From: Halobacteriales archaeon QH_7_66_36
GTDB lineage: Archaea > Halobacteriota > Halobacteria > Halobacteriales > Haloarculaceae
Length of the DNA: 58,690 bases
Reading direction: 5' to 3'
NCBI GenBank assembly: GCA_003021175.1
Contig: PXQV01000008.1
Span: forward strand, 1-58,690
Shown here: piece by piece, positions 50,350 to 54,814 of the stretch
How the letters are laid out: every line of letters starts with the position of its first letter
How positions within the stretch are numbered: position 1 is the stretch's first letter
Translations under genes and position numbers: made by a program
The notes under the pieces: model-generated
What the model saw: only the letters and a program-made list of their open reading frames with translations
Database searches by the model: none
Told to the model about the DNA's origin: nothing

Positions 50350-50976
50350 ATGAACGCCGACGAGTTCGTCGACGCGGTACGGAATCAGAACAAGACTGAG
50401 CTGTCGCGGCTCGGCTCTTCGAAGTCGCTGTACGCCGACACGGAAGGCGAGATGGAGCCGGACGTCGTCATGCGTGCGGCCGCGGACGCCGAACACGCCG
50501 CCGCAGAGACGTTCGAGGCGTGGGCCGACTCCGCCGCCGGTGAGGCGAGCGAGGTGTTCCGCGCGACGGCCGAAGAGGAGTACGACCACTACGAACAGGT
50601 CGTCGCCGAGTTGGACGACCACGAATCCGGCGGAGATCCCCCTGCCATACAGGAGTATCTCCGCGGGCTCGACGGCACGACGGAGCGACTCGGCGCGCTC
50701 GTCGGGCGGACGCTCGCCGCCGAGAAGTCGAAGGAGCAGACGACCGGCTTCTTCGTCGGGCAGGCGAAGCCGCAGGTGGCGAGCACGTTCCGCGGGCTGG
50801 GTGACGACCTCGACGACCAGATCGCCCGCGCGACCGACCTGCTGGCCGAGCGGTGTGAGAGCGACGAGGAGTGGGAACGAGCAGTGACGGCCGCTTCGGA
50901 GGCCATCGGGGTCGCCTACGAGGAGTACACGGAGCGGCTGGAGTCGATGGGCGTCAACCCGAAGCCGGTGTGTTAG
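50350..50976 (+). CDS. Ferritin-like/rubrerythrin-like haloarchaeal protein
   Basis: The 208-residue, mainly helical and acidic protein has two E-x2-H-like pairs, DAEHAAAETFEAW (about 46-58) and TAEEEYDHYEQV (about 75-86), which suggest a ferritin-like diiron bundle. The segment MNADEFVDAVRNQNKTELSRLGSSK is conserved in haloarchaeal homologues as I remember them; some are labelled transcription antitermination protein without clear basis. The function is open. Its stop overlaps the convergent signal peptidase gene by 4 nt. Confidence 0.6.
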   Translation: MNADEFVDAVRNQNKTELSRLGSSKSLYADTEGEMEPDVVMRAAADAEHAAAETFEAWADSAAGEASEVFRATAEEEYDHYEQVVAELDDHESGGDPPAIQEYLRGLDGTTERLGALVGRTLAAEKSKEQTTGFFVGQAKPQVASTFRGLGDDLDDQIARATDLLAERCESDEEWERAVTAASEAIGVAYEEYTERLESMGVNPKPVC

Positions 50977-51731
50977 ACGGCCGCCCGCGTGCTGTTAGTG
51001 GTCGCCGGCGCGGCTGGATCGGTCGACGCGGATAACTCCACCAGCGTGGCTGGCCCGGACCAGACGTAGAGCGGGCAGGGACCGTTGCCGGAGGCGCAGA
51101 GCTTCACGTAGCCGAGGCCGGGAACGCCGAACTCGGCGGTCCCGATGATCCACGCCGGCCGCACCGGCGAGGACAGCCCCGTCACCTGATCGTATCGGTC
51201 GTTCGTCGCCGGGTTGTCGCCCTTCGTGATGAATCCGGCGTGCGGCGCCGGACAGTTGCGGAGCTGCTCGCAGTTCTTCGCGTCGCCGATGCTGTCCTTG
51301 TCGGCTCTGTCGTACCAGTTCTCTCCGTCCGCGACCCAGAGGCGGGCCCGATGGATGATCGGGGTTCCGGAGCGATTGTCCGGTCGGTAGATGATCACGT
51401 CGCCGTAGTTCGAGAACTCCTGATAGCCGGCCGTCCGGCCGTCCTGATACGTGACGACGCCCGTCTCCCCCTGCGCGGCCTCCGGCGAGAGTCGGTCTTC
51501 GTCCATCACGAACACCAGCTCGCCGACGGTCATGTTCGGCTCCATGCTGCCGGACTCGACGGCGACCATGGGAGGCCAGACGCCGCTGATGGCGAACAAC
51601 AGCAGCCCGACCGCGAGCACCGCGCCGACGCTCGTGAACACCTCTCGGACGTACGCCACGCCGGAGTGGTCGGTCGTCCAGAGCCAGCGCAGCCACTCGA
51701 CCGGCCCGCGCGGCCCCGACTCGTCGCTCAT
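50973..51731 (-). CDS. sec11: Signal peptidase I (Sec11/archaeal type)
   Basis: The 252-residue membrane protease has one clear N-terminal helix (about 33-55). Catalytic Ser62 lies in SGSMEPN, His127 (in place of lysine, as in Sec11) in IIHRAR, and acidic residues in TKGDNPATND. A last hydrophobic stretch near the C-terminus may be a second membrane contact. It cleaves Sec and probably Tat signal peptides. The ATG at 51731 fits the family. Confidence 0.9.
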   Translation of the reverse strand: MSDESGPRGPVEWLRWLWTTDHSGVAYVREVFTSVGAVLAVGLLLFAISGVWPPMVAVESGSMEPNMTVGELVFVMDEDRLSPEAAQGETGVVTYQDGRTAGYQEFSNYGDVIIYRPDNRSGTPIIHRARLWVADGENWYDRADKDSIGDAKNCEQLRNCPAPHAGFITKGDNPATNDRYDQVTGLSSPVRPAWIIGTAEFGVPGLGYVKLCASGNGPCPLYVWSGPATLVELSASTDPAAPATTNSTRAAV

Positions 51732-51925
51732 TACCCCCCGTATCCGTGCAAGTCGTTTGAACGTTCTGTCTTCCGGGAGTCTCGCTGGATTCGGCAACAG
51801 CGACGGGATGAGACGGGAGTCGTGACGCGAATCGAGGCTCGGAGAGGCCGCGTGCCGCTGTCGAGCGAGCGGGCGCTTTGCTCGGGTCGGCACGCTTTTG
51901 CCCGCCTGTCGCTTCTCATCGGAGC

Positions 51926-53500
51926 GTGCCGCTGGAGTCGCCAGCCCGGATAGCGAGCGAACTCGCGAGCCGTGGCTTCAACGCGTCCCGCGAGGCCGTC
52001 ACCCTGCTCGCCAGTGCCGCAGATACGGAGACAGCGCTGGCGCTCGCCGTCGAGGCAGTGCCCAACGACACCCTCGTTCTCACCGCCGAGGACGTGGAGC
52101 GGGTGCTCGACGACGGCCGCCACACGCGCCGCGACGCCGATATCAGTGATTCGAAGCCTGACGACCCCTCCGTTTCGACTGGAACTGACCCGGAGAATCT
52201 GAACGACAAGAGTGGAACTGCTCCAGTCGAAACAGAGGGGTCTTCGGGCGGGGCGGCGCTGGGGTCGTCGTTCGCACGCGACCCAGATATCTCGAAGCGA
52301 TCCATCAGCGTCGGGCAGGACATCACCGGGGAGTCGACGGGTACCGGCGAGTACGGGGACTTCGTGACGGTGTTTCGCGACCGCTACGAGAAGCTCGCCG
52401 GGCAGTTGCGCGGCCGGGTGAACCACCGGCCGACGGACTCGCTGCGCGCGATGCCGGGCGGGAGCAACGCCGGCCTCGTCGGGATGGTCAACGACATCCG
52501 CTCGACGGCGAGCGGCCACTGGCTAATCGAGTTGGAGGACACCCACGGCGTCTTCCCGTGTCTGGTCATGAAGGACAAGGGTATCGCCGACCTCGTGGAC
52601 GAACTCCTGCTCGACGAGGTGATCGCCGTCGACGGGACGGTGAGCGACGACGGCGGCATTCTCTTCGTCGACTCGCTCCACTTCCCGGAGGTGCCGCGCA
52701 CTTACGAGCCGAGCACGGCCGACCGTCACGTGCAGGCCGCGCTGGTCTCGGACGTGCACGTCGGCTCCGAGGAGTTCCTCGCGGGCGCGTGGCACCGCTT
52801 CGCCGACTGGCTCCACACCGAGGAGGCCCGCAACGTCGAGTATCTCCTCGTCGCGGGCGATATGGTGGAAGGCGTCGGCGTCTACCCCGATCAGGACGAC
52901 GAGCTCGACATCGTCGACATCTACGAGCAGTACGAGGCGTTCGCGGAGTATCTGAAGGAGGTGCCGGGCGATCTGGAGATCCTGATGATCCCCGGCAACC
53001 ACGACGCCGTCCGCCTCGCCGAGCCACAGCCCGGCTTCGACGAGGAGCTGCGCGACATCATGTCAGCTCACGACGCCCGCATCCACGGCAACCCCGCCAT
53101 GGTCGACGTGGAGGGCGTGAAGATTCTGATGTACCACGGTGTCTCGCTCGACGAGGTGATCGCCGAACTCCCAGAGGAGAAGGCGAGTTACGACGCGCCA
53201 CACAAGGCGATGTACCAACTGCTGAAGAAGCGCCACGTCGCCCCGCAGTACGGCGGTCACACGCGACTCGCCCCCGAAGAGGAGGATTATCTGGTGATGG
53301 AGGAGGTGCCGGACGTGTTCCACACCGGCCACGTCCACAAGCTCGGCTGGGGGCAGTACCGCCGCGTCATCGCCGTCAACTCCGGCTGTTGGCAGGCGCA
53401 AACCGACTTCCAGCGCTCGGTCAACATCGACCCCGACGCCGGCTACGCGCCGATCCTCGATCTGGACACGCTCGACATGAGCGTCCGCGACTTCTCCTGA
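51926..53500 (+). CDS. polB: DNA polymerase D small subunit (DP1)
   Basis: The 524-residue exonuclease subunit has the calcineurin-like metal motifs SDVHVGSEEF, AGDMVEG, IPGNHDAVR, MYHGVSLD and TGHVHKLGW, preceded by an OB domain (about 185-265). DP1 gives PolD its 3'-5' proofreading; the large subunit DP2 is elsewhere. The GTG at 51926 matches the VPLESPARIASELASRGFN start, with a TATA-like GCTTTTGCC upstream. Residues 80-107 are a low-complexity linker made by a palindromic DNA repeat. Confidence 0.93.
   Translation: MPLESPARIASELASRGFNASREAVTLLASAADTETALALAVEAVPNDTLVLTAEDVERVLDDGRHTRRDADISDSKPDDPSVSTGTDPENLNDKSGTAPVETEGSSGGAALGSSFARDPDISKRSISVGQDITGESTGTGEYGDFVTVFRDRYEKLAGQLRGRVNHRPTDSLRAMPGGSNAGLVGMVNDIRSTASGHWLIELEDTHGVFPCLVMKDKGIADLVDELLLDEVIAVDGTVSDDGGILFVDSLHFPEVPRTYEPSTADRHVQAALVSDVHVGSEEFLAGAWHRFADWLHTEEARNVEYLLVAGDMVEGVGVYPDQDDELDIVDIYEQYEAFAEYLKEVPGDLEILMIPGNHDAVRLAEPQPGFDEELRDIMSAHDARIHGNPAMVDVEGVKILMYHGVSLDEVIAELPEEKASYDAPHKAMYQLLKKRHVAPQYGGHTRLAPEEEDYLVMEEVPDVFHTGHVHKLGWGQYRRVIAVNSGCWQAQTDFQRSVNIDPDAGYAPILDLDTLDMSVRDFS
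52163..52242. repeat. 21-bp near-perfect inverted repeat inserted in the DP1 linker
   Basis: The arms 52163-52183 (GACCCCTCCGTTTCGACTGG plus A) and 52222-52242 are complementary at 20 of 21 positions, with a 38-nt loop. The palindrome encodes PSVSTG...PVETEGSS, and because of symmetry the opposite strand can encode the same peptide. It falls in the disordered linker between the N-terminal and OB domains, where an in-frame insertion is tolerated. Confidence 0.7.
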
Positions 53501-54005: not shown

Positions 54006-54079
54006 CGGGCCGAGTGGGAGTTGAACCCACGACCGTCCGGTTAAAAGCCGGACGCTCTGCCGGGCTGAGCTATCGGCCC
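54006..54079 (-). tRNA. tRNA-Lys (TTT)
   Basis: The minus strand gives a 74-nt intronless tRNA. The acceptor GGGCCGA pairs with TCGGCCC, the anticodon stem TCCGG/CCGGA encloses loop CTTTTAA with anticodon TTT, and the T-arm has GGGTTCAACTCCC. The discriminator is G and CCA is not encoded. A GTTTACC stretch at about 54105-54111 may be its TATA. Confidence 0.95.
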
Positions 54080-54130: not shown

Positions 54131-54814
54131 CTACTCGTCGAGATACGACGCCAGCGCGTCGGCGACCACGTCGGCAGGACCGGTCTCGTCGAGCGCGGCG
54201 CGGCGGCGGAGGCGCTGGTACACGTCCGTCGGGAGCGACAGCTCGACGCGACCGAGTTCGACATCGGTGTCGCCGAGTGCTTCCTCGACGCTCGCGCCGT
54301 CGTTGACCCGAGAGGCCGCGGCGCGCACCTCTCGGACGGTGAGACCGTGGTCGAGCACGGCCCACGCGAGGAGGAATCGGGCCTCGCCGGCGACGCGCGC
54401 GATGTGTTTGGCCGCGGTCGGTGCGATCTGACCGAGGGCGACGTACCGGCGCACGGATCGGGGCAGGTCGTGGACGCGCGCCCACTTGCGGATGAACGAG
54501 ATGGTCGCTTCGCCGCCGGCCCGCTTCGCGGCGGCCTTGTACGAGCCCTCGCCGCGGACGAGCGCGGCACACGCGGCCGCACCCCGAAGCATGTACACGT
54601 TGTCGGTGCCCCCGGCGGTGTTCTCGGCGAACCGACGGACGACGTCGGCGGCCTCAGCGAGGCTCTCGGGATCAGTTGGGTCGAACCGGGCCGCCTCCTC
54701 GCCAGCGACGTTCCGCCGAATGACGGGTTCGCCGACGGGCGACTCACGGCTGGCCGTCCCCGTCGACGGCTGCTCGTCTGGGTCGGAGGCGCTACGCTTC
54801 TCTCCGGGGTCCAT
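54131..54814 (-). CDS. ParB-HTH-like DNA-binding protein with C-terminal ribbon-helix-helix-like end (DUF7119-like)
   Basis: The 227-residue protein has a disordered charged N-terminus (1-45). A central helical region (about 85-175) reads YKAAAKRAGGEATISFIRKWARVHDLPRSVRRYVALGQIAPTAAKHIARV (positions given in two parts), the layout of the ParB/KorB helix-turn-helix domain. The C-terminus VELSLPTDVYQRLRRRAALDETG resembles a ribbon-helix-helix. No ParB N-terminal nuclease/CTPase domain is present. It likely binds DNA; target and role are unknown. TATA CTTTTTATC lies about 30 nt upstream. Confidence 0.6.
   Translation of the reverse strand: MDPGEKRSASDPDEQPSTGTASRESPVGEPVIRRNVAGEEAARFDPTDPESLAEAADVVRRFAENTAGGTDNVYMLRGAAACAALVRGEGSYKAAAKRAGGEATISFIRKWARVHDLPRSVRRYVALGQIAPTAAKHIARVAGEARFLLAWAVLDHGLTVREVRAAASRVNDGASVEEALGDTDVELGRVELSLPTDVYQRLRRRAALDETGPADVVADALASYLDE

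Follow-up and report, generated by a model that had tools for sequence, protein, structure and literature searches.

An inverted pair of origin recognition boxes within the haloarchaeal gene for the PolD small subunit as a candidate Orc1 control site

The stretch of DNA analysed here (58,690 nucleotides, referred to as the window) carries on its plus strand, at 51926-53500, the gene for DP1, the small (proofreading) subunit of the polymerase PolD. The gene begins with a GTG start codon and its product matches the NCBIfam model NF003116 ('DNA-directed DNA polymerase II small subunit') with 960 bits against a cut-off of 425, as well as the Pfam families PF04042 and PF00149; its closest named relatives are those of the MAG Halobacteriales archaeon QS_9_67_17 (97%) and of Halosegnis rubeus (78%). 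Residues 66-150 (52121-52375) probably form a permissive, disordered linker, since they have a pLDDT below 50 in the AlphaFold model of DP1 (mean pLDDT 64.6, 22 sequences), and alignment to solved DP1 chains starts only at query residue 145 or later. The family match and the low-confidence region bear out a sequence-only reading of this DNA, which had located a palindrome in this subunit of PolD and assigned it to a flexible linker. DP1 adjoins a divergent, signal-peptidase-like gene (50973-51734, minus strand; TIGR02228 with 48.4 bits, just below the cut-off of 51.85), mentioned for context only. Downstream of DP1 lies a gene for a DUF7119 protein (54131-54814, minus strand; PF23433, 240 bits) with a weak match to a ParB-type HTH, and a tRNA-Lys (ttt) gene is located between the two (54006-54079, minus strand).

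The linker contains an inverted repeat (52156-52249) comprised of two 28-nt arms (52156-52183 and 52222-52249) that are 89% complementary and flank a 38-nt spacer. The 21-bp arms with one mismatch that had been noticed in the coding sequence are indeed present within it, as GACCCCTCCGTTTCGACTGGA (52163-52183) and TCCAGTCGAAACAGAGGGGTC (52222-52242). Each arm holds the 19-bp core of the haloarchaeal origin recognition box (ORB), TCCANNNGAAACNNAGGGG, a predicted site of the initiator Orc1/Cdc6. The left ORB, which reads TCCAGTCGAAACGGAGGGG on the minus strand (52165-52183) and occupies a conserved orthologous place, has 0 mismatches to the core and its G-string faces outward, towards the start of DP1; the right ORB, TCCAGTCGAAACAGAGGGG on the plus strand (52222-52240), likewise has 0 mismatches and its G-string faces outward in the downstream direction. 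The 38-bp spacer between them (52184-52221) is nearly fixed in length across haloarchaea, free in sequence and, as a class, not AT-rich. Both arms are read in one DP1 frame as D-PSVSTG ... A-PVETEG-S and, since they point in opposite directions and share one phase, the minus strand over the palindrome is an open frame with the same peptide motifs, as had also been claimed. The core matches the window twice at 0 mismatches, whereas over 100 dinucleotide shuffles the average number of matches at ≤3 mismatches was 0.08, and in no shuffle were there two; two exact matches in one window are not a product of chance.

ORBs are described, in passages of published work, as Orc1 sites that bear an extended G-string in halophiles (PMC3528665, PMC3936714, PMC7776575). 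The whole 2.6 Mb genome contains seven exact copies of the core: two in DP1, four around orc1/oriC1 that span C12:61595-64128 (orc1 itself at 61758-63023, minus strand), and one elsewhere (C17:14646). Eight relatives hold 38 exact ORBs in total, and among the 30 fetched as loci, 10 lie in DP1, 13 have orc1 within 1.5 kb, 3 stand beside these at oriC1 (assigned from pairing or chromosome ends) and 4 are elsewhere. The outermost two ORBs upstream of orc1 (63859, minus; 64110, plus) face outward, as the DP1 pair does, and carry the extended halophile G-string GGGGTGGGGG, which was not found at the DP1 pair, where GGGGTC is present instead. More broadly, among 157 exact ORBs located upstream of DP1 the bases after GGGGT are G at a frequency of 73-83%, compared with 9-45% among 140 DP1 ORBs. 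Judged by their bases, the DP1 arms are the ORB core and not the full origin-type haloarchaeal ORB; that Orc1/Cdc6 binds the pair is very probable.

The distribution of the pair was assessed in the best 80 of 185 DP1 loci, a named set ranked by protein similarity independently of the ORB, with an inverted pair scored at ≤5 total mismatches of 28. The pair is present in 73 of these loci, spaced start to start by 57 bp in 69, by 69 bp in two and by 54 bp in two, and the remaining seven hold the right ORB only, namely six loci titled as Halorubrum (L083, L084, L088, L089, L094 and L097) and Haloplanus ruber (L075). In the six Halorubrum genes the left ORB is gone and the right one is intact (0 mismatches), and across 81 loci the right arm is the better kept (≤1 mismatch in 66, versus 52 for the left arm). 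The linker around the pair varies by some 170 nt, with 194-368 nt between the DP1 start and the first arm and 84-255 nt between the second arm and FRDR. A further 68 haloarchaeal DP1 loci yielded 49 pairs, but nine of these loci had been chosen by ORB pattern; the 59 chosen without the ORB, which may overlap the named set, comprise 40 with the pair, 6 with the right ORB only, 1 with the left only and 12 with none (no pair by the cut-off, and each arm taken singly at more than 1 mismatch), and some of the last group (L129, L183, L185 and L208) retain a degenerate pair at 57 bp. The pair is not indispensable, since Halorubrum-like genomes keep the right ORB only and 12 of the 59 loci have none. 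In Haloferax DP1 (L050, L062, L068, L073, L076, L079, L081 and L092), the 57-bp pair has degenerate arms with 3-4 mismatches in total. A search for the pair as a fixed-spacing pattern gave hits in 152 of the order's 293 genomes, one per genome in all but two (one an apparent contig duplicate), and a reversed control pattern gave no match in the same order among the matches listed; 21 of 22 loci fetched by the pattern are in DP1 and the exception (L233:1468-1543) is inside orc1. DP1 genes from other families of the phylum gave no ORB pair (0 of 23), and of the 20 outgroup loci for which upstream DNA was included, 10 have ORB-like sites 2-5 kb upstream of DP1. The element is a haloarchaeal one and occupies an orthologous place in nearly all named haloarchaeal DP1s studied.

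Rickettsia palindromic elements (RPEs) are in-frame palindromes in genes, and the sequence-only reading had likened the DP1 palindrome to an inserted element of this type. It is, as such a mobile element would be, an in-frame palindrome in a linker, and a similar peptide occurs in two proteins, but its position is orthologous throughout haloarchaea, nothing is conserved beyond the two ORBs, neither spacer nor flanks are repeated, and the genome holds only seven exact ORBs and not many dispersed copies at non-orthologous sites. Unlike an RPE, the palindrome is not mobile and is explained by ORBs; an RPE-like insertion is hardly credible and was rejected on orthologous position and ORB identity. 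Recurrence of the arm in other genes had been proposed as a sign of such elements, and it was found, as S-PVETEG-S in an insert of the Natrialbaceae-type Orc1; this is the sole trace of the RPE idea, and a DNA site accounts for it. In the proposed comparison of DP1 orthologues, the palindrome is kept at the orthologous place in nearly all of them, as DNA and not as protein.

This distinction is drawn from a codon test on a MAFFT alignment of all 81 DP1 proteins, built without reference to the ORB. Val83 is encoded by GTT in 58 of 58 cases (background 4.9%), Thr85 by ACT in 62 of 65 (2.9%), Gly86 by GGA in 61 of 64 (5.8%), Pro100 by CCA in 74 of 75 (7.0%), Glu102 by GAA in 80 of 80 (25.5%) and Gly105 by GGG in 69 of 75 (22.8%), counts that carry no probability, as the species share ancestry. 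Where the ORB permits any base, both codons and residues vary among the 81 DP1s. Across the 67 loci with a spacing of 57, the information content lies entirely in the arms, where every codon position contributes, and in one or two adjacent bases, and is close to background in the spacer. Selection acts on the DNA of the arms and not on the protein: rare codons are fixed, the spacer varies freely, and there is hardly any of the covariation between arms expected of an RNA stem. A short linear motif of the DP1 linker, PSVSTG...PVETEG, would agree with the invariance of Ser84, Glu102 and Gly105 in 22 aligned DP1s and with the same peptide in the Natrialbaceae-type Orc1 insert, but it would not fix synonymous sites on rare codons or leave residues free exactly where the ORB tolerates change (Glu, Lys, Gly or Arg at 104; Val, Pro, Ala or His at 101). 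The codon test led to rejection of this very improbable reading.

In favour of an RNA hairpin in the DP1 transcript, the RNA fold of the window is strong (-49.8 kcal/mol, z -6.5), but there is little or no covariation between the arms: pairing at variable positions is about equal to that obtained by re-dealing the second arm across species, apart from two positions where it is slightly more frequent. Identical middle triplets occur in both arms in 25 of 71 cases versus 17.3 expected (P 0.007), and this mild excess probably reflects shared ancestry. Moreover, Halorubrum-like genomes have lost one arm and retained the other at 0-1 mismatches, and the ORB at the orc1 start is solitary. The RNA stem was rejected as well, its probability being very small.

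A further possibility is that the pair marks a dormant or auxiliary replication origin, or the relic of an oriC formerly at DP1. Its inverted ORBs and outward G-strings have the polarity of this genome's oriC1 core, and DP1 adjoins orc1/oriC1 in most haloarchaea: a close orc1 lies near DP1 in 65 of the 80 loci, typically 2.2-4.5 kb upstream, and two further orc1 matches are distant paralogues of 27-28% identity. In the present genome, DP1 (on C11) is not adjacent to orc/cdc6, and orc1 is located more than 60 kb into C12. Ten loci with some 10 kb available on both sides have no close orc1, and seven of them carry the 57-bp pair, two the 69-bp pair and the tenth, from a Halorubrum MAG, the right ORB only; the pair is independent of linkage to oriC1. 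The spacers, with a mean GC of 0.665 against 0.676 for the surrounding coding sequence, have as a class no AT-rich unwinding element (the window's own spacer has a GC of 0.53), and the extended G-string is absent at the DP1 ORBs. Mutation of the G-string abolished oriC1 in Haloarcula hispanica, according to a passage of one study (PMC3936714). A relic, in turn, would decay rather than hold rare codons, and GC skew around DP1 has no clear turn. Because it survives unlinked from oriC1 and lacks both an AT-rich unwinding region and the extended G-string, the DP1 pair is probably not an origin, active or relic, and the origin reading is improbable, whereas a regulatory role is likely. The pair may have a local role in oriC1 firing where the distance is only about 3 kb, as in most genomes.

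ORBs are also found at orc1 itself. Of 62 orc1-linked loci, 60 have an ORB at ≤2 mismatches no more than 700 nt upstream of the conserved LPHR motif, and an in-frame ATG follows 4-15 nt after the ORB end in 57 of the 62; in this genome, the minus-strand ATG of orc1 at C12:63284 follows an ORB at 63299-63317 (locus L007). The ORB that abuts the orc1 start is a candidate autoregulatory operator. Inside the orc1 coding sequence, an ORB is present in 24 of 58 loci, whose genomes are of Natrialbaceae type as read from their record titles; it shares the frame of the DP1 ORBs, encodes S-PVETEG-S and most often has a degenerate inverted partner at 48 bp. These loci were chosen by ORB match, and their codon counts are no independent test.

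That ORBs are concentrated at oriC1, next to the orc1 start and within DP1 suggests feedback of Orc1 on its own gene and on PolD. On balance, the DP1 palindrome is best regarded as an intragenic inverted ORB pair that would serve as an Orc1-bound control site outside an origin. Orc1/Cdc6 of the oriC1 type would bind the inverted ORBs within the DP1 coding sequence, with one molecule on each and a defined separation of 57 bp from start to start; the conserved spacing suggests that the two would act together. The resulting nucleoprotein complex would hinder DP1 transcription when free Orc1 is abundant, and RNA polymerase elongating through the gene could be stopped by a bound pair, so that the supply of replicative polymerase would be tied to the level of initiator; in parallel, orc1 would be subject to feedback through the ORB that adjoins its start. 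A roadblock would fit a pair located at varying distances from the DP1 start, as would a sink, whereas a promoter-proximal operator would not tolerate variation of some 170 nt. Repression or roadblock of DP1 is put forward as the main output only tentatively, and its nearest rival is titration, in which the pair would soak up Orc1 and limit re-initiation, its place in DP1 being incidental. Comparable cases are datA in E. coli and oriC2D of Haloarcula hispanica, which is rich in ORBs and has been published as a cluster of such sites that is not an origin, with a proposed role in titrating Cdc6E (PMC3936714). The DP1 pair similarly places initiator sites outside an origin, without origin features, and would double soon after initiation in the majority of genomes, where DP1 is about 3 kb from oriC1. 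Two sites, however, would add little beside those of oriC1, a sink would need no particular location although the pair is retained by DP1 genes that are no longer near oriC1, and most of the remaining intragenic ORBs belong to orc1, all of which makes titration rather unlikely. Returning to control by bound Orc1, it is possible, if far from assured, that haloarchaea hard-wire an Orc1 circuit into the coding sequences of replication genes through the DP1 pair present in most of the class, the orc1-start ORB and the Natrialbaceae-type orc1-internal ORB (pair), in which case initiator occupancy would directly gate production of both the replicative polymerase and the initiator. No claim of helical phasing is made, because a spacing of 54 recurs, though the other DP1 spacings (57, 69 and 78) and that of most orc1 pairs (48) would be near half-integral turns.

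Known systems resemble the DP1 pair in part. Haloarchaeal oriC1 ORBs share with it the identical 19-bp core, the inverted arrangement with outward G-strings and the orc1 of the same genome, but the DP1 pair lies inside a protein-coding gene, has a spacer of almost constant length (38 bp) without AT enrichment, is devoid of the extended halophile G-string and persists away from oriC1. In oriC2D, ORBs also stand outside an origin proper with a likely role in negative control, although as an intergenic cluster of 11 beside cdc6E and not as two sites in coding sequence. The E. coli DnaA regulon, as presented in part of one article, is compact, includes replication genes and relies on paired initiator sites of fixed spacing outside the origin (PMC11317965), but its initiator is bacterial, and its DnaA-box pairs are unrelated in sequence, are upstream of their target genes and are spaced by 2-3 bp. 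The DNA-damage-responsive Orc1-2 of Sulfolobales is an Orc1-family protein that regulates transcription, as described in sections of one report, yet it is a non-initiator paralogue that binds an ANTTTC element in promoters (PMC9738581).

The binding site is already known, and its conserved place inside DP1 is new. A literature search of open-access full text found no report of ORBs inside DP1, and a published survey of haloarchaeal origins, by its own description in part, considered only intergenic regions beside orc/cdc6 genes (PMC3528665), a restriction by which the DP1 pair would escape it. If Orc1 binds the pair, archaea would possess a set of initiator-controlled genes analogous in logic to the bacterial DnaA regulon, and the pair would offer an easily recoded site for testing the coordination of initiation with fork supply. 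Two minor observations concern the other surroundings of ORBs and of orc1. The same-strand frame after orc1 (L013, C12 near 61127) has an N-terminus that we take to be that of the PolD large subunit, DP2. Lastly, the ORB at C17:14646 (L008:1501-1519) is single and follows a serB-like phosphatase gene at a distance of about 50 bp, as does one in a related genome (L238:1501).
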